Origin: Methylibium sp. NZG
GTDB taxonomy: Bacteria; Pseudomonadota; Gammaproteobacteria; Burkholderiales; Burkholderiaceae_C
DNA length: 64,000 bases
Direction of reading: 5' to 3'
NCBI GenBank assembly: GCA_001263235.1
Contig: LGRD01000001.1
Location: forward strand, 1 to 64,000
The translations under genes and the position numbers were made by a program. This document shows, one piece after another, positions 24,025 to 38,382 of this stretch (the stretch's first letter is position 1; every line of letters begins with the position of its first letter). Below the pieces are notes generated by a model. That model was not told where the DNA came from, searched no databases, and saw only the letters and a program-made list of their open reading frames with translations.

Positions 24025-24133
24025 GCTCCCTCCCCCCTTTGGGGAGAGGGTTGGGGTGAGGGGCGCGCGCGGGCATGGGGAGGCGTTGGCCCTCGGCCCT
24101 CACCCCCGCCCTCTCCCAGAGGGAGAGGGAGCC
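24025..24133. repeat. Pair of inverted REP-like palindromes (CTCCCTC...GAGGG family)
   Basis: Two units face each other at about 24025-24063 and 24095-24133. Each is itself a palindrome of the form CTCCCTCTCCC, short loop, GGGAGAGGG, followed by a TGGGGTGAGGG tail. Single units of the same family are at 28741, 37100 and 43423. Lying between convergent genes, this pair could act as a bidirectional terminator. Confidence 0.85.
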
Positions 24134-28644: not shown

Positions 28645-28740
28645 GGCTTACCCCGTCAGAAGTCATGGTTCCTCCTCCTGAAAAGGGCGAGGGCAAGGGC
28701 AGCGAGGCTGAGCCACACGCAATGCTGGTTCAAGGTAGCA

Positions 28741-28776
28741 GCCCTCACCCCTGCCCTCTCCCAGGGGGAGAGGGAG
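28741..28776. repeat. REP-like palindrome at the end of the FAD-subunit gene
   Basis: One unit of the CTCCCTCTCCC/GGGAGAGGG family. The stop codon of the FAD-subunit gene at 28745 lies inside it, so its last roughly ten residues (SPSPPGRGQG) are encoded by the repeat. Confidence 0.85.
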
Positions 28777-31290: not shown

Positions 31291-31365
31291 GTCGAATGAA
31301 CTTTGGCTGTGCTGGTGATGATCGGCACACCCAGCGGTGAGGGACGCGAGCGGCGGGTAGGCAAC

Positions 31366-31574
31366 TCCGCGAATGTCCTCCGGGCCGAAAAGAGCCTCGG
31401 CCCTCCCCCTTTACTTCGCTGCGTTGCCCACCCACCGCTCGCGTCCGGCGCAACGCATTTGGCCCTTGTCCCAAAGACAAACACCAGCGGCAAGATGGGT
31501 TCGGTGGGGCGTGTCGCGCAGCGAAGTAAAGGAGGAGGGCCGAGTCCTTTCTCGGCCCGGGGGACATTCGCGGA
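31366..31574. repeat. Large imperfect inverted repeat (58-bp arms) between livG and the permease
   Basis: The arm at 31366-31423 (starting TCCGCGAATGTCCTCCGGGC) is the reverse complement, at about 50 of 58 positions by eye, of the arm at 31517-31574. The two are separated by 93 bases. Weaker symmetry extends outward and inward. The 385-base intergenic stretch 31291-31675 contains no convincing gene; this element fills most of it. It looks like a non-autonomous mobile repeat and would form a strong RNA hairpin within the operon transcript. Confidence 0.8.
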
Positions 31575-31675
31575 GTGGCATGCCCCGGCGGACCCATCTC
31601 GCGCGGTCGACGCGAACGGGCTGGCATCCTCACGACCCCGAACGAAACAGCCGAGGAGGCGCACCGCACCCCGCC

Positions 31676-33607
31676 TCATGCCGCCTCCTTCTTGGCGACC
31701 ACACCAGAGTCCACCGCACGCCGCTCCGCACTCCGCCGCCCGTACACAACCTGCCGCACGAAGCCCGCAATCCCCTGCGGAAACAACAGCACCAGCAACA
31801 AGATGATGCCGCCCAGCATCGCGCGCCAGTAGTCGGTGTTGCGCGCCACCGTGTCGTGCAGCCAGGTGAACGTGACCGCGCCGACCACCGGCCCAGCGAG
31901 CGTTTGCACGCCGCCCAGCAGCACCATCACCAGGCCATCGACCGACTTGCTCACGTGCAGGCTGTCGGGCGAAATGCTGCCCTTGGAGAACGCGAACAGC
32001 GCGCCCGCGAGACCGGCGAACACACCGGCGATGACGAACGCGGCCCACTGCACGCGCTTCACGTCGATGCCGATCGCGTCGGCACGCAGGAACGAGTCGC
32101 GCCCCGCGCGCATCGCATACCCGAACGGCGAAAACAGCATGCGCCGCAGCAGCAGCACGCCTCCCACCACCAGCACGAGCGTGAGGTAGTAGTAGCTGCG
32201 CTTGTCGCTCAACCACTCGGCCGGCCAGACGCCGGTGAGGCCGTTGCTGCCGCCGGTGAAGCCGTCCCACTGGTAGACGACGGCCCAGGCGATCTGCGCG
32301 AAGGCCAAGGTCAACATCGCCAGGTACACGCCCGACAGCCGCACGGCGAACCAACCGAACAACAGTGCGCCGATGGCAGCCACCAGCGGCGCCATCACCA
32401 GCGCCGCCTCCATCGGCAGGCCAAGTGCGCGCACCAGCAGCGCCGCGCCATAGGCACCGAGCCCGAAGTAAGCCGCATGCCCGAACGAATGCATGCCCGC
32501 CGGCCCCATGATGAAATGCAGGCTGGTGGCAAACAGCGCGGCGATCAGCAGGTCGATCATCAACACCGTGAGGTAGGGCGACTGAACGCTGATGATCGGC
32601 AGCACCGCGAGCAGCACCAACAGCGCCGCACCACTCCACAGCACGAGCTTGTCGGCCGGCCGCAGCGGCTCTTCCACTGTGCCCGCGTGCCGGCTCGGCG
32701 CCTGCGCGCGGCCGAGCAGGCCCCAGGGCCGCACGATGAGCACTGCAGCCATCACCAGAAACTCCACCACCAGCGTGAGCTTGGAGAACGACAGGCTCAC
32801 GCCCATCACTTCCACCAGCCCGATGGCGATGCACACCGCCTTGATCTCTGCGATGAGCAGCGCCGCGACGAACGCGCCGGGGATCGAGCCCATGCCACCC
32901 ACCACCACCACGACGAAGGCCGCGCCGATGGTCACCAGGTCCATCTCCAAGTTGGCCGGCTCGCGCGGCAACTGCAGCGCCCCACCCAGCCCGGCCAGAA
33001 AGGCGCCGAGCGCAAACACGCTGGTGAACAGCCACGCCTGATTGACGCCGAGCGCACTGACCATCTCGCGGTCCTGCGTGGCCGCGCGCACCAGCGTGCC
33101 CCAGCGCGTGCGCGTGAGCAGCAGCCACAGCAGCCCCAGCACCACAGGGCCGACGACGATCAGGAAGAGGTCGTACTGCGGGAACTGCCGGCCGAGGATC
33201 ATCACCGACCCCGCCAACCCCGGCGCACGCGGGCCCAACAATTCTTCGGGCCCCCAGAACCACAATACCGCATCCTTGATGACCAGCACCAACGCAAACG
33301 TCGCCAGCAACTGGAACAACTCCGGCGCGTGGTAAATGCGCCGCAGCAGCAGAACCTCGACCAGCGCGCCCAGCACCCCCACCGCCACCGCCGCCAGCAG
33401 CAGCGACGGCCAGAAGCCGATGCTGGGCCCGAGCCGTTCGACCAACGAGTAGGCCGTGTAGATGCCCACCATGTAGAACGACCCGTGCGCAAAGTTGACG
33501 ATGCGCGTGACGCCGAAGATCAGCGACAGGCCCGCTGCGACGAGGAACAGCGAGGATGCGCCGGCCAGGCCGTTGAGGAGTTGGACGAGGAGGGCGGAGA
33601 GGGTCAC
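31676..33607 (-). CDS. Fused LivH-LivM permease of a branched-chain-type ABC importer
   Basis: This 643-residue membrane protein joins both permease subunits. Residues about 1-290 match LivH (GLSLIFGVTRIVNFAHGSFYMVG near residues 26-48 and GGMGSIPGAFVAALLI). Residues about 325-625 match LivM (GPAGMHSFGHAAYFGLGAYGA and FGYAMRAGRDS), ending with the GGVQTLAGPVVGA segment. A linker of about 30 hydrophilic residues (RAQAPSRHAGTVEEPLRPAD) joins them. The start is GTG at 33607 with a GGAG site in the 13 bases after the preceding gene. The binding protein of the system lies 3.5 kb away beyond an accessory island. Confidence 0.9.
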   Translation of the reverse strand: MTLSALLVQLLNGLAGASSLFLVAAGLSLIFGVTRIVNFAHGSFYMVGIYTAYSLVERLGPSIGFWPSLLLAAVAVGVLGALVEVLLLRRIYHAPELFQLLATFALVLVIKDAVLWFWGPEELLGPRAPGLAGSVMILGRQFPQYDLFLIVVGPVVLGLLWLLLTRTRWGTLVRAATQDREMVSALGVNQAWLFTSVFALGAFLAGLGGALQLPREPANLEMDLVTIGAAFVVVVVGGMGSIPGAFVAALLIAEIKAVCIAIGLVEVMGVSLSFSKLTLVVEFLVMAAVLIVRPWGLLGRAQAPSRHAGTVEEPLRPADKLVLWSGAALLVLLAVLPIISVQSPYLTVLMIDLLIAALFATSLHFIMGPAGMHSFGHAAYFGLGAYGAALLVRALGLPMEAALVMAPLVAAIGALLFGWFAVRLSGVYLAMLTLAFAQIAWAVVYQWDGFTGGSNGLTGVWPAEWLSDKRSYYYLTLVLVVGGVLLLRRMLFSPFGYAMRAGRDSFLRADAIGIDVKRVQWAAFVIAGVFAGLAGALFAFSKGSISPDSLHVSKSVDGLVMVLLGGVQTLAGPVVGAVTFTWLHDTVARNTDYWRAMLGGIILLLVLLFPQGIAGFVRQVVYGRRSAERRAVDSGVVAKKEAA

Positions 33608-33620
33608 GGCGCAGCTCCGT

Positions 33621-34529
33621 TCACGTCGCCGCCTTGCGGCTTCGGCGCCTGCGTCTTACCTTCGGGGAAGGCGGGGCAATGACTGGAGCAGCCGCATCGC
33701 CGTTTTCATCGGTGAGCTCTAGCAATGGCTCGACGGGGGTCGCCGGCAGCTGTGACGGTCGATTTCGACTGTCCTCGAGTTCGGAACTGTGCCAGTGCTC
33801 ATGAAGCTCGCTCTCGAGCCACTCTGTGAGTTGGAGGCAGTACTCGTAGGACTCCAGGAAGTATGGGATGTCTACAGGTAAAGGCCGACCAACCTTGGCT
33901 TGAGCGTGAGAGCCGGACTTGCGGGCGTATGTGTCGTTAGCAGTGCCGCGGTTGTGAATGAAGATGTCCCGCGTTGCCTTGATTTCGATGTATCTGTGAA
34001 AGGCGGGGCACTCCAACAGATTGATTGACAGTAGGGAATCGAAGGATTCGGCGAACTCGTTAGGGGACTTGTATGAAAGGTCGTTAAGAAGCGCGTCTGT
34101 CGCTCGAAGATGAATGTCCTCGAGGGTTTGTGCTTCAAGCACAAGTTGAAGTGAAACGGTTCGCTTTGCCCCCAGCTTCTGCGGGTACCTTGTAATCACC
34201 GTGCGAACCACATCTCCGAGGAGTGCTTCAACGATCGTGACGAGTTGGACCAGCCCATTCACCGGCATCTGATGAAACGCTAGATGCTGATACCTGCGTA
34301 TTAGTTCGTCCTTTGCATATTTGCGTGTGCTGAGGATCGAAGTCTTGTTCGGACGGTAGCCCACGGGAAAGGAAACTTCGACCACTTCACTCTCGCCTGA
34401 ACTGACGTTATCCGCTGTGACATCGAAGGCGCCGTAGGTCAGCTGCGCTAGTTCGCCTTGGTCAAAGAGTGCATTGCGCGCTGACGACGTCAGTCGATAG
34501 AGGACATTGCCAATGTTGGGCGTACTCAT
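33621..34529 (-). CDS. HEPN-like protein of unknown function, probably acquired
   Basis: This 302-residue protein was not assigned to a named family. Residues 187-193 read RDIFIHN, the R-x4-H form of the HEPN ribonuclease motif, in a helical context (HRYIEIKATRDIFIHNRG), after a helical region containing LVTIVEALLGDVV near residue 100. HEPN domains often act as toxins or in phage defence (family knowledge). The C-terminus is proline-rich and then strongly basic (RRRRRSRK). Base composition is visibly AT-richer than the flanks. The stop is only 13 bases from the permease start, so it sits inside the importer operon. Confidence 0.6.
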   Translation of the reverse strand: MSTPNIGNVLYRLTSSARNALFDQGELAQLTYGAFDVTADNVSSGESEVVEVSFPVGYRPNKTSILSTRKYAKDELIRRYQHLAFHQMPVNGLVQLVTIVEALLGDVVRTVITRYPQKLGAKRTVSLQLVLEAQTLEDIHLRATDALLNDLSYKSPNEFAESFDSLLSINLLECPAFHRYIEIKATRDIFIHNRGTANDTYARKSGSHAQAKVGRPLPVDIPYFLESYEYCLQLTEWLESELHEHWHSSELEDSRNRPSQLPATPVEPLLELTDENGDAAAPVIAPPSPKVRRRRRSRKAAT

Positions 34530-34630
34530 ATCAATGCTGGCCGCGCAATTGCTATCGACCCGTACGCCTCGCTCTGAGGGCGTTCGGAAGGGAGACCGCT
34601 ACGCGTCTCGCTCCGACAAACCACATAGCC

Positions 34631-34873
34631 AGCAAAGCCGCGAGCGGCAGCCGGGCGCAGCGCCTCTTCGGCGTCGAGGAGCGCAGGGCTCGCGGCCCGC
34701 GCGCGCAGCGCGCTTCGTGGACTGACTTGTCGCCGACTGTTTGAACGCAGCGCAAGCAGGGCGCGGAGTGAGTTTCGGCGACGGGCCGCGGGACCGAGCA
34801 CCGCAGAGCAGTCGGCCGTACCCGGCCGACCGCCGAAGTGAAGCGGAGCACGGCTGGCGCTCGCGGGTTTGCT
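34631..34873 (+). repeat. 243-bp element with 22-bp terminal inverted repeats, copy 1
   Basis: The element begins AGCAAAGCCGCGAGCGGCAG and ends with the near-perfect reverse complement (GGCTGGCGCTCGCGGGTTTG...), giving 22-bp terminal inverted repeats with two mismatches. It is the same length as copy 2 at 35498 and differs from it at nine positions by eye. It contains no gene and fills most of the 386-base gap 34530-34915, next to the 3' end of the antitoxin gene at 34916. Similarity to copy 2 continues about 25 bases past the right end. Confidence 0.85.
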
Positions 34874-34915
34874 CGCGCAGCCGGTCAAGGTGAACCCTTC
34901 AAAACGTGACCGCTT

Positions 34916-35158
34916 TCAAGCCGCGGCGCGCTTGCGCGCAGGGGCTTTCGGTGGCGGGGCGCGCCGTGTCACGGCGACCGCCTGCGCGAGAGCACGCAAA
35001 GCGGCGTTCACTGCTGCCGAGTCGGGGAACAGGCTTTGCACGTCCCTGTCGAGCACGACGACGTTGCTGCCTTTGGCCATCCGGGCCACATACTTTCCGC
35101 GTACACCCTTCGAAAAGTCGTACTCGGGCATCAAGTCGTTGTCAGGTACTTTCGTCAT
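34916..35158 (-). CDS. Antitoxin-like protein paired with a BrnT-type toxin (paralogue 1)
   Basis: This 80-residue protein contains EYDFSKGVRGKY and GSNVVVLDRDVQSLFPDS and ends in a basic KAPARKRAAA tail. Proteins with the YDFSKGVRGKY start commonly follow BrnT/DUF497 toxin genes. Here the ATG at 35158 lies inside the last codons of the BrnT-like gene, as expected for such a module. It is about 85% identical to the orphan copy at 36775-37014. Confidence 0.75.
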   Translation of the reverse strand: MTKVPDNDLMPEYDFSKGVRGKYVARMAKGSNVVVLDRDVQSLFPDSAAVNAALRALAQAVAVTRRAPPPKAPARKRAAA

Positions 35159-35423
35159 AGGTTTTGCGCTCCTTGCGGGTGGCGGTTCTGGCGCTGATGA
35201 GACGGATCGTATCGCCTCGGTCAGTGTGTACAACAGCGAGCATGCGCCCCGCTTGAGAGCGCCCGAGCAACACGAAGCGCGACTCGCCTTCCGAGTGCAG
35301 CGGGTCGGCAATAGCGAGCGAGCGCGGATCGGCGAATGCGGTGGTGGCCTCCTCGAACGCGACGCCGTGCTTGCGCAGGTTGAGAACCGCCTTTGCCGGG
35401 TCCCACTGAAACTCGATGCTCAT
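35142..35423 (-). CDS. brnT: BrnT-family toxin
   Basis: This 93-residue protein starts with the DUF497/BrnT pattern FQWDPAKAVLNLRKHGVAFEEA and ends with the conserved IRLISARTATRKERKTYDE. BrnT is a ribonuclease toxin of the RelE-like fold. The gene overlaps its antitoxin by 17 bases. The first residues, MSIEF, fit the family start. It is one of two BrnT genes in this island; the other is at 36407. Confidence 0.88.
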   Translation of the reverse strand: MSIEFQWDPAKAVLNLRKHGVAFEEATTAFADPRSLAIADPLHSEGESRFVLLGRSQAGRMLAVVHTDRGDTIRLISARTATRKERKTYDEST

Positions 35424-35497
35424 GGCGACGCTGCTCGACGATGCGCCGATGCGCTTCTCGGCTGGGGGCCTTGCTCGGTGCGAGCGTCAACGTCTCC

Positions 35498-35740
35498 AGC
35501 AAACCCGCGAGCGGCAGCCGGGCGCAGCGCCTCTTCGGCGTCGAGGAGCGCAGGGCTCGCGGCCCGCGCGCGGAGCGCGCTTCGTGGACTGACTTGTCGT
35601 CGACTGTTTGAACGGAGCGCACGTAGGGCGCGGAGTGAGTTTCGGCGACGGGCCGCGAGACCGAGCACCACAGAGCAGTCGGCTGTACCCGGCCGACCGC
35701 CGAAGTGAAGCGGAGCACGGCTGGCGCTCGCGGGTTTGCT
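35498..35740 (+). repeat. 243-bp element with 22-bp terminal inverted repeats, copy 2
   Basis: Same orientation and exact length as copy 1, with nine substitutions and no gaps by eye. Its terminal repeats (AGCAAACCCGCGAGCGGCAG and the reverse complement ending GGGTTTGCT) match at 21 of 22 positions. It fills the 367-base gap 35424-35790 and lies next to the 3' end of the orphan antitoxin at 35791, where a toxin gene would be expected. Confidence 0.85.
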
Positions 35741-35790
35741 CGCGCAAGCCGTCGCAGTGATCTCTTCCCATGACGGAAGCCAATGCGTCA

Positions 35791-36039
35791 TCAAGGTGCG
35801 AGGCGGCGCGCCTCGTCCATGACTTCGTCCAGGTGGTAGACCTTCCCCTCGCCCCGCTCATGCGCGGCGATTCGACGCTCGATCTCCTTGTCCCACGCCT
35901 CCTTCACATCGCTCGGCGTCGACTGTTGCAGAGACTCCAGCAGAAGGTCGACAAGCCTCACCCGCTCTTCACTCGGAAAAGCGCGGCCTCTCTCGGCGAG
36001 TTCCAGGACGGGGTCAGGCATGGCGCTCGTTGTCAGCAT
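35791..36039 (-). CDS. Addiction-module antitoxin without a partner toxin
   Basis: This 82-residue protein matches the addiction-module antitoxin family whose members read LLESLQQS and KEAWDKEIERRIAAHERGE, ending in an acidic helix (VYHLDEVMDEAR). These proteins normally precede a RelE/ParE toxin gene. Here no toxin follows; the DNA downstream is copy 2 of the 243-bp element. An in-frame ATG at 36021 (MPDPVLEL) is an equally good start. Confidence 0.82.
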   Translation of the reverse strand: MLTTSAMPDPVLELAERGRAFPSEERVRLVDLLLESLQQSTPSDVKEAWDKEIERRIAAHERGEGKVYHLDEVMDEARRLAP

Positions 36040-36081
36040 TAAGCGAAGGTAAGTCGATGGCAGAACGTGGGCGACTGGCCG

Positions 36082-36444
36082 TCAGGCCGGGGTATGGGTC
36101 TTGAGCCAGTCCTGCAGGGCCCCATCGACCTTGGTTTGCCAACCTTCACCGGTTGCCTTGAACGCATCCAGAACTTCGGGCGACAACCGAATGTTGATGG
36201 CGACCTTGGGCGGACGGCGCCCAGGCCCGCGCTGGCCGGGCTTCCGCTTCTCGGCCAAAGCCGCGCGAACGGCCGCATAACCCCCGCCGTTCACGACCAC
36301 GGCGTTCTTCCAGAACGCATTCACTGCCTTTTCATCGCTCGGGTCGTAAGGACTGTCCGGATCGGCGACCTGCTCCGGCGCAGCATCGATCAGGGCCTTG
36401 ACTTGCTTAGCGCTCAACTTGGGAGAAGTAGTGCTTCGTTTCAT
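36082..36444 (-). CDS. brnA: BrnA-family antitoxin
   Basis: This 120-residue protein has a C-terminal ribbon-helix-helix-like segment typical of BrnA: KVAINIRLSPEVLDAFKATGEGWQ, then IDGAL-like VDGALQDWLKTH. The N-terminal half, with DPDSPYDPSDEKAVNAFWKNA, is also characteristic. BrnA binds its toxin and represses the operon (family knowledge). The start overlaps the end of the BrnT gene at 36407. Confidence 0.88.
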   Translation of the reverse strand: MKRSTTSPKLSAKQVKALIDAAPEQVADPDSPYDPSDEKAVNAFWKNAVVVNGGGYAAVRAALAEKRKPGQRGPGRRPPKVAINIRLSPEVLDAFKATGEGWQTKVDGALQDWLKTHTPA

Positions 36445-36679
36445 ATCTCGTGGCCTTGCGGAGAGAGATGACGTGCAAACCGTCTCCCCGCTCTGTGTAA
36501 GTCATGTGCACGACCTGCCCGGCCAACAAACCAATCAGATTGATTCGTTGCTCGCCGTAAGCCAGGCGATCGTCTTCCTGTGTGATGACTGGTCCGTCGA
36601 AAACGCGCTCACAACCGATGAAGTCAAGCCCGTGGTCCTTGAGGTTGCTCCTGCGCTTCGGCTCGTCCCAGGTCAGCAT
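36407..36679 (-). CDS. brnT: BrnT-family toxin
   Basis: This 90-residue protein has the BrnT pattern LTWDEPKRRSNLKDHGLDF and a C-terminal HVISLRKATRYETKHY. It is followed with a 38-base overlap by brnA, the standard order. Together they form a complete module, distinct in sequence from the one at 34916-35423. Confidence 0.9.
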   Translation of the reverse strand: MLTWDEPKRRSNLKDHGLDFIGCERVFDGPVITQEDDRLAYGEQRINLIGLLAGQVVHMTYTERGDGLHVISLRKATRYETKHYFSQVER

Positions 36680-36774
36680 ACTTTAATTGTATCCACGAAA
36701 AGCTTCTGGGAGCCCGCGCCGACTGCGCGCAGGCGGTTGCTCGCGACGACACATTGCACACGGCTGCAGCTTCC

Positions 36775-37014
36775 TCAAGCCGCGGCACGCTTTCGCGCAA
36801 CGGCTTTCGGGTGAGGGGAGCGTCGTGTCACGGCGACCGCTTGCGCGAGGGCGCGCAGCGCGGCATTGAAGGCGGCCGAGTCGGGGAACAGGGTCTGCAC
36901 GTCCTTGTCGAGCACGACGACGTTGCTGCCTTTGGCCATCCGGGCCGCATACTTTCCGCGCACGCCTTTGGAGAAGTCGTATGCGGGCAGCAGATCTTTG
37001 TCGGGCGCTTTCAT
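36775..37014 (-). CDS. Antitoxin-like protein, orphan paralogue 2
   Basis: This 79-residue protein is about 85% identical to the one at 34916-35158 (shared AYDFSKGVRGKY, GSNVVVLD and LAQAVAVTRR segments and the KRAAA end), and the DNA is also very similar. No BrnT-like gene lies upstream: the 156 bases up to the binding-protein gene contain only a REP-like palindrome. An AGGA site precedes the ATG. It is probably a duplicated antitoxin that lost, or never had, its toxin. Confidence 0.72.
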   Translation of the reverse strand: MKAPDKDLLPAYDFSKGVRGKYAARMAKGSNVVVLDKDVQTLFPDSAAFNAALRALAQAVAVTRRSPHPKAVARKRAAA

Positions 37015-37099
37015 GCGCTTCCTATCTGTCGCGGATGGTTGGAGTGAAATGCTCGGCTCTTACTTTGTCCGAGCGAGTTCTTCATGCGTGAGGCTGCGG

Positions 37100-37134
37100 C
37101 CCTCACCCCTGCCCTCTCCAAGAGGGAGAGGGGG
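37100..37134. repeat. REP-like palindrome
   Basis: One unit of the same family as at 24025, 28741 and 43423 (GCCCTCACCCCTGCCCTCTC, loop, GAGGGAGAGGG). It sits 36 bases past the 3' end of the binding-protein gene, at the border of the accessory island. Confidence 0.85.
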
Positions 37135-37170
37135 CCAATACAAAGCGCGGGGCCGCGGACGAACACGTGA

Positions 37171-38382
37171 TCAATCCGCCGGCCGCAGCTTCTTCACCTC
37201 CGCCGCCGACGGCAGCACCTTGGCGCCGTCGATGAAGACGTAGTCGACCATCGTGCCCTTGCCGTTGTCGTTCTTGGTCTTGCCGACGAAGGCGCCCATG
37301 GTGGACTGGTGATCTTCCGGGCGGTACACGACGGGGCCGAACGGCGTGACGACCTTCAGGCCCCTGAAGGCAGTGATCAACTTTTCGGTGTCGCTGCTCT
37401 TGGCCTTCTTCATGCCTTCGGCGAGCGAGTGGATGAGGGCGTAGCCGACGACCGAGCCGAGGCGCGGGTAGTCTTGGTACTTGGCGTGGTAGGCTAGGAA
37501 GAAGGCCTTGTGCTCGGGCGTCTGGATGCCGTACCACGGGTAGCCGGTAACGACCCAGCCGTTGGGGGTTTCGTCTTTCAGCGGGTCGAGGTATTCGGGC
37601 TCGCCGGTCAGCAGGCTCACCACTTCACGGTCCTTGAACAGGCCGCGCGTGTTGCCCTCGCGAACGAACTTCAACAGGTCGGCACCGAACAGCACGTTGA
37701 ACACCGCGTCGGGCTTGGCGTCGGCCAGGGCCTGCACCACGCTGCCGGCGTCGAGCTTGCCCAGCGGCGGCGCCTGCTCGGCGACGAACTCGACGTCGGG
37801 TTGCGCGGCCTTGAGCAGCGTCTTGAAGCTGGCCACGGCCGACTGGCCGTATTCGTAGTTGGGGTAGACGATGGCCCAGCGCTTCTTCTTCATCTTGGCG
37901 GCCTCGGGCACCAACATCGCCACCTGCATGTAGGTGGAGGTGCGCAGGCGGAAGGTGTAGCGGTTGCCGTTGGCCCAGACGATTTTGTCGGTGAGCGGCT
38001 CGCCGGCCAAAAAGAACATCTTCTTCTGCTTGGCAAAGTCGGTCAGCGCCAGGCCGATGTGCGACAGGAACGAGCCGGCCAGCACGTCGACCTTTTCGCG
38101 CGACAGCAGTTCTTCAGCAGCGCGCACCGCGTCGCCAGGGTTGGCGTTGTCGTCGCGGATGATCAGCTCCAGCTTTTTGCCATTCACGCCGCCGGCCGCG
38201 TTGACCTGCTCCAGCGCCAGCTCCATCCCCTTTTTGTAGGGCTCCAGGAACGCAGGCTGTGCCTTGTAGCTGTTGATCTCGCCGATCTTGATGGTGCCTT
38301 GCGCGTGCGCGGCCAGGCTGGACGCCAGGCTCAGGCCCGCCGCGATGGCAACGGCTGGGACGATCTGTCGGAGTGAAGTCAT
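37171..38382 (-). CDS. Periplasmic binding protein of the branched-chain-type ABC importer
   Basis: This 403-residue protein has a signal peptide cleaved after AAHA (about residue 27). Its two-lobed receptor fold has IKIGEINSYKAQPAFLEPYKKG at the start and LELIIRDDNANPGDAVRAAEELL near residue 70, as in LivK/amide-binding proteins. It would capture the substrate for the LivHM-G-F components downstream. The DUF1185 gene upstream ends 154 bases away. Ligand identity cannot be read from the sequence; a pyridine carboxylate or amide is suggested by the surrounding enzymes. Confidence 0.9.
   Translation of the reverse strand: MTSLRQIVPAVAIAAGLSLASSLAAHAQGTIKIGEINSYKAQPAFLEPYKKGMELALEQVNAAGGVNGKKLELIIRDDNANPGDAVRAAEELLSREKVDVLAGSFLSHIGLALTDFAKQKKMFFLAGEPLTDKIVWANGNRYTFRLRTSTYMQVAMLVPEAAKMKKKRWAIVYPNYEYGQSAVASFKTLLKAAQPDVEFVAEQAPPLGKLDAGSVVQALADAKPDAVFNVLFGADLLKFVREGNTRGLFKDREVVSLLTGEPEYLDPLKDETPNGWVVTGYPWYGIQTPEHKAFFLAYHAKYQDYPRLGSVVGYALIHSLAEGMKKAKSSDTEKLITAFRGLKVVTPFGPVVYRPEDHQSTMGAFVGKTKNDNGKGTMVDYVFIDGAKVLPSAAEVKKLRPAD

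Follow-up and report, generated by a model that had tools for sequence, protein, structure and literature searches.

The Locus and Its Repeats

The window, by which we mean the whole 64,000-nt stretch of Methylibium sp. NZG DNA analysed here, carries a transporter operon in which a UrtA-like gene and a fused UrtB/UrtC-like gene are separated by a 3.56-kb insertion (Table 1). Of 79 named relatives with both genes, 78 have a gap of -4 to 249 bp here and the remaining one a gap of 527 bp. Two BrnT-type toxin genes, BrnA, another antitoxin, and genes without an assigned family lie within the insertion; the 79-aa gene next to the first toxin has a paralogue at 36775-37014. Most of these genes fall below the score of our gene caller, which is home-made and overlooks foreign genes.

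Table 1. Coordinates of the repeat units and neighboring features in the window
Feature	Position	Strand	Remarks
Truncated B-subtype unit, contig start	17..120	+	97% to B unit
Fused UrtB/UrtC-like permease	31676..33607	-	below NCBIfam cut-offs
3.56-kb insertion between UrtA-like and UrtBC-like genes	33608..37170	.	both units and toxin-antitoxin genes inside
Copy 1, lone A-subtype unit (W variant)	34631..34873	+	core 34671-34812, model R1 145.4 bits
Gene of 79 aa, presumed to encode the antitoxin to BrnT	34916..35155	-	without Pfam or NCBIfam match
BrnT-type toxin	35142..35423	-	PF04365, E 2e-28
Copy 2, lone A-subtype unit (W variant)	35498..35740	+	core 35538-35679, model R1 147.9 bits
Putative addiction-module antitoxin	35791..36039	-	PF09720, E 6e-14 over 35791-36024
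Second module, BrnA antitoxin and BrnT toxin	36082..36679	-	PF14384, PF04365
UrtA-like substrate-binding protein	37171..38382	-	below NCBIfam cut-off

Two repeats lie in this insertion, each about 42-50 bp past the stop codon of a small gene on the minus strand (the genes end at 34916 and 35791), that is, at the 3' ends where the earlier note had placed them. As that note also described, they measure 243 bp each, share one orientation, and are 96% identical. Their alignment is free of gaps, and the likeness continues for a few bases past the right edge (TTTGCT-CGCGCA). The 22-bp inverted ends are present as well, pairing at 20/22 and 21/22 positions when counted by eye, and arms of 43 nt recur in inverted form at 84% both within copy 2 and between the two copies. 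With filters off, the final model exceeds 20 bits at these two copies only in the whole window. The third fragment that had been seen at the window start is indeed a related piece, 92-94% like the window copies over 17-67, but it is not of the same subtype: over 17-120 it agrees at 97% with a unit of subtype B, the sister form, and so represents a truncated B copy at the contig end; the gene downstream of it is, as judged from its sequence, a putative ABC-permease-like gene.

The toxin-antitoxin genes probably entered the same permissive gap, which would make the neighborhood incidental. A cassette of gene plus repeat, as first proposed, is not the rule of the family, most examined loci adjoining transporter and metabolic genes. 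A link between W units (the variant found in the window) and accessory genes is nevertheless conceivable, and another W pair of the source genome (L092, left out of one of the locus sets together with the second L115 copy) lies close to a ParE-type toxin gene.

Other repeats were seen in the window as well. A different, near-perfect inverted repeat of ~230 bp occupies 31355-31585 in the UrtBC|UrtD gap (fold of -178 kcal/mol for 270 nt), with no second copy among the loci examined; the UrtBC|UrtD gap is also doublet-bearing in L144, in L357 of genome G065, and in three Variovorax loci. Short CCCTCACCCC...CTCTCCC...GGGAGAGGG repeats at 24088-24129, 28733-28774, and 37091-37132 resemble the intrastrand-triplex motifs outlined in PMC4666352.

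The Element Family: Units, Subtypes, and Doublets

Each window repeat is one unit of a hairpin family that is dispersed between genes and folds strongly. At E<=0.001, copy 1 finds 50 matches across the source genome, of which some are short or cover a single arm; a B unit finds 72, an overlapping set that also includes single arms. The copies are thus not confined to the window, and the outcome that the earlier note named as refuting, these copies alone and no signs of mobility, did not occur. Single-strand folding, proposed at the same time, revealed a strong fold for the window unit (z = -7.1 as DNA and -5.6 as RNA), with none of 200 shuffled sequences equally stable either way. Taken together, these z-scores and the 50 genome matches rule out chance.

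The units come in two subtypes with a common core and differing ends, namely A, to which the window variant W belongs, and B. They usually occur as an inverted doublet of about 510-620 bp, made up of two ~240-nt units, B on one strand and A on the other, that are set apart by a short spacer (~20-90 bp in the source genome). All 14 source-genome loci shown have A and B head to head, 13 of them spanning 514-620 bp and one, which bears an internal deletion, 389 bp. Head-to-head doublets occur in several genera, and the window copies are lone A units within an island where the typical doublet form is absent. No conserved reading frame was found, the longest stop-free runs differing widely among copies in all six frames. 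Several source-genome contigs start or end in or near a copy (C1, C5, C21, C28, C32, C34, and C38).

A small hairpin repeat of varying sequence, CCGGAC...ACAGTCC...GGACTGT...GTCCGGGC, is nested in or beside doublets of different genomes (L234, L236, L238, L239, L100, and L028). A different dispersed repeat of ~120 bp, found in many places of the source genome, lies at L102:728-851 (contig C15). The source-genome pairs L094/L097 and L102/L104 are recent segmental duplications of 2.5 and ~4 kb (95-99.9%), each starting at, or a few bases from, a doublet's outer A end and extending to a contig end.

Distribution

Within the family, 399 genomes were sampled, and the model matches 240 of them (60%) and 93 of 141 genera, a tally that includes the source genome and other genomes that supplied model sequences, in which some of the weak matches (E 1e-6 to 1e-8) may be to more distantly related elements and, with ~8 candidates scored per genome, copy numbers are lower bounds. 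In a phylum-wide sample, 9 of 299 genomes were matched, seven of them (source genome included) from the same family.

Among 80 named loci from a search with UrtA, model matches were obtained in four, namely L144 and three Variovorax loci. The first belongs to Burkholderiaceae bacterium TGS_PRO28 (genome G060) and carries a full doublet within the same transporter operon as the window, one gap further on, and the three Variovorax loci have a pair with shorter cores between UrtBC and UrtD. G060 contains about 40 loci (43 before L232, L237, and L238 were superseded by the wider L252-L254), mostly full doublets with 80-94% identity to the L144 copy. Together with G064 and G065 it represents one genus (g122), the three genomes being G321, G395, and G220 of the family sample; L376, from genome G062, was left out of the analysis.

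On plasmids, neither the source-genome unit nor the G060 doublet had a match. The Variovorax form matched 18 plasmid records; among the best 10 of these, a 2.5-Mb V. paradoxus replicon was matched over 85% of the query and the others over 10-27%. In phages this form had no match. An exact-pattern search of genome contigs gave no match, and literature keyword searches, whose partial coverage is no proof of novelty, found no description of this element. The family is apparently uncatalogued.

Folded Structure and Strand

Structure is kept throughout the unit core, where compensatory changes occur in 25 of the 30 predicted pairs (61 aligned unit cores from 12 genomes). A search against Rfam yielded no match up to E<=1 in window positions 34000-37200, and over L212, L225, L111, and L103 a lone match (E 0.69) that falls under the gathering score and outside the element.

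The two strands of the unit were compared by counting only pairs predicted when either strand is folded. For this comparison and that of copy likeness, partial copies were excluded, leaving 36 of 40 in G060, 12 of 17 in G064, and 17 of 22 in G065; from the source genome, 19 A and 17 B units, with ends as cut in the analysis, served for the strand comparison and the end-tag test given below. On the plus strand of the unit, G-U-type mismatches outnumber A-C-type mismatches in the source genome and in G060, and pooling these with G064 and G065 gives 58:29 pairs in favor of G-U (p 0.0025). The bias is absent in the B halves of G064 and G065, and in the B half of G060 it favors the antisense strand, which speaks against selection on sense mRNA alone. 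These patterns hint, though not decisively, that one folded single strand per unit is what matters.

Placement within Operons

In the three g122 genomes, most copies lie in sense orientation between co-directional genes. This holds for 35 of the 40 copies in G060 (with 2 antisense, 2 between divergent genes, and 1 between convergent genes), for 14 of 17 in G064 (2 antisense, 1 unknown), and for 21 of 22 in G065 (1 antisense). Over the three genomes, both flanking genes were called at 78 loci, and at 75 of these they run in the same direction (70 copies sense, 5 antisense). Of 341 control gene pairs, which come from G060 throughout, 245 are co-directional, 48 divergent, and 48 convergent (Fisher 5e-7 for the difference in co-direction). 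When shared sites are merged by hand, 61 distinct gaps remain, of which 52 are sense and 2 antisense (p 2e-13); three others have opposite orientations between species, two are divergent, one is convergent, and one is unknown.

The three biased genomes belong to one genus and therefore stand for a single lineage. The source genome is without orientation bias (5 sense, 6 antisense, and 6 convergent, assigned by hand and with two duplicated pairs included), and four other genomes are near background, with 14 of 20 loci co-directional, 4 convergent, and 2 divergent. Replication strand was considered as the cause of orientation and rejected, as the orientation flips within ~12 kb (C1:423578 on the plus and C1:435334 on the minus strand of G060). 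In some gaps the doublet is found in opposite orientation across species (L340 vs L248/L362, L354 vs L343, L349 vs L359, and L095 vs L355).

Genes for transporters are common neighbors. The domains ABC_tran, BPD_transp_1, and BPD_transp_2 account for at most 25 of 80 genes flanking copies vs at most 10 of 79 controls (p 0.007; one duplicate gene was removed from the original 80), the counts being sums over families in which a fused protein would count twice. Set against the same G060 control, the source genome has these domains in up to 19 of 43 flanking proteins, a set from which one L101 gene was dropped (44 before) and in which one ATPase is doubled via duplication.

Within one genome, copies have a mean likeness of 0.83-0.88, and those in the same gap of different species 0.74-0.87; in only 3 of 15 same-gap pairs is the partner the first or second most similar copy of the other genome, and the remaining pairs are no closer than other copies. 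This pattern fits either concerted evolution or repeated insertion into the same gaps. It is also what turnover predicts for a purely selfish hairpin, which would insert into transcribed gaps, be purged elsewhere, and have no role in expression. Nested insertions and truncations, which are frequent among copies, and the lack of orientation bias in the source genome agree with that explanation. Each pair among G060, G064, and G065, however, has seven gaps in common, seemingly above what random insertion into thousands of gaps would give, and 70 sense against 5 antisense copies call for a directional cause. On balance, we hold pure selfishness to be a serious possibility, if one to which we would not give the larger share of our belief.

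Gain, Loss, and Mobility

Filled and empty versions of the same gap can be found among relatives. The doublet at G060 C1:1201825 is missing from G062 and G063, in which the flanking genes nearly touch (as read, stop and start overlap in G062). Likewise, ~690-720 bp separate two genes in Variovorax L182, L193, and L197 that overlap in L174, L186, L188, and L189. In V. beijingensis (L211) a ~19-nt palindrome similar to the element's outer ends remains in a 130-bp gap, and the three filled Variovorax loci carry about 560-590 bp more; from its sequence, the remnant looks like a deletion between inverted ends. Dozens of scattered copies, sharp ends, and these filled and empty sites support the non-autonomous mobile element that the earlier note had offered as one of two possibilities.

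The inverted ends and the composite size would suit a miniature element (MITE) derived from a classical terminal-inverted-repeat transposon of the DDE type, as would the long matching outer ends that Variovorax doublets show by eye. Against this, the target-site duplications that had been looked for as a sign of transposition were not detected around 36 G060 copies (mean longest flank repeat of 3.33 nt vs 3.40 nt in shuffled sequence), no full-length relative with a transposase was found among the loci read (the survey covered Y1 transposases), and structure is conserved across the unit core. We therefore regard a MITE origin as improbable.

The other possibility, a very long recombination site, would make the units giant attC-like sites of a scattered integron. 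Both are palindromes that fold as single strands, toxin-antitoxin genes adjoin some copies, and IntI (TIGR02249, above cut-off) is encoded in all four genomes tested. Nonetheless, the arrays beside IntI in G064 and G065 (L436:10545-16763 and L437:12046-19058), genuine cassette arrays to all appearance, look different, consisting of 10 and about 9-10 repeats, respectively, of ~80-95 nt with TAAC...GTTAG ends, whereas the units are 243 bp long and dispersed as singles or inverted doublets. In G060, IntI has no evident array in the stretch read, and that of the source genome sits at a contig end. No R1 unit occurs in ~20 kb around each of the four IntI genes (on one side only in the source genome), GTTRRRY has 0 matches on either strand of both window units and their 20-nt flanks, and the conserved parts of the real G064 and G065 sites find nothing above chance in the window. 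As far as these tests reach, an attC identity for the units was thus rejected, and we give the integron reading next to no credence.

Comparison with Described Repeats

The closest functional parallel is offered by REPIN/BIME elements, which PMC3116915 and PMC2817692 describe as extragenic inverted doublets of palindromic units, high in copy number and species-specific. Our element shares with them the inverted doublet of palindromes, the extragenic spread, the high copy number, the species specificity, and a structure that is kept despite sequence change. The REPIN/BIME unit, however, is 20-40 bp long, and that of the element ~240 bp. Also, the sense placement within operons, seen here in one genus, sets it apart.

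The parallel could be extended to the motor, with the family viewed as a REP/BIME/REPIN system mobilized by a RAYT (Y1) transposase. The source genome has a single RAYT-like gene (L118:2945-3810), and Y1 genes are found in four more carriers (G012, G020, G029, and G006), with 20 matches in G014. In REP/BIME/REPIN systems, however, the cognate RAYT is flanked by units, and here the source gene is isolated: it is apparently frameshifted, scores below the cut-off of NCBIfam REP_Tyr_transpos, and lies ~25 kb from the nearest listed unit. The Y1_Tnp profile has no match at E<=1e-3 in G032 or in G060, despite the ~40 copies of the latter. The units are ~10 times the length of a REP, and the end tags are missing from nearly all of them: within the terminal 12 nt, GTAG or its complement occurs in 0 of the 19 A and 17 B source-genome units, and CGTC or its complement in 1 of 19 A and 2 of 17 B. 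Mobilization by RAYT therefore seems unlikely to us, even if it fares better than the transposon and integron explanations. In short, the element works like REPIN/BIME doublets yet departs from them in unit size, in the RAYT of G060, and in the end tags.

Within this bacterial group, the closest described repeat is the Beta-proteobacterial repeat element (BRE). As PMC3110155 describes it, it is likewise intergenic and GC-rich, with up to 29 copies (Polaromonas), but differs in being ~90 bp long (75-91 bp in Bordetella) and often tandem; the comparison covers sizes and contexts.

ERIC, NEMIS, and RUP are structured intergenic repeats with traits of mobile elements, some of them tied to mRNA stability. 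Compared by description, all three occur in other hosts, and our element differs as a doublet of large units. They are named in PMC3110155, and bacterial stem-loop families are treated in PMC2267715.

Interpretation and Significance

The family is most likely a BIME/REPIN-like non-autonomous hairpin element that acts, we infer, on polycistronic mRNA. Specifically, we favor dispersed hairpin doublets in operon gaps that are non-autonomous and serve to separate the expression of operon genes, a reading that we put at slightly better than even (roughly 0.55). The element would spread non-autonomously, its hairpins being read as folded single strands by some factor, and a doublet could be lost through near-precise deletion. 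Once transcribed, two very stable hairpins would part the upstream from the downstream message, break translational coupling, and shield the upstream 3' end from exonucleases. The doublet would be kept at operon gaps because its transcribed hairpins separate the two messages in this way.

The result would be unequal levels for the genes of one operon, as with the structure between malE and malF. According to PMC5927463, intergenic RNA structure of the malEFG type controls mRNA decay and thereby sets unequal expression in ABC-transporter operons. Both cases involve structured RNA between the genes of such operons, but the element differs in being a large dispersed doublet. Its hairpins may tune the expression of neighboring genes.

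A bolder version of the preferred reading, which we offer tentatively and with clearly less confidence, is that of mobile doublets that act at the RNA level, are kept in sense orientation in the same operon gaps across species, and serve as insulators that can be installed to reset stoichiometry within transporter operons, being moved without a RAYT by a strand-specific factor.

The finding raises the question of what moves such large palindromes in a genome like G060, where no RAYT was found. If the preferred reading is true, a single family of structured elements rewires operons in a good part of a large bacterial family (60% of sampled genomes), and filled vs empty gaps would constitute a natural experiment on operon-internal RNA structure and gene dosage.
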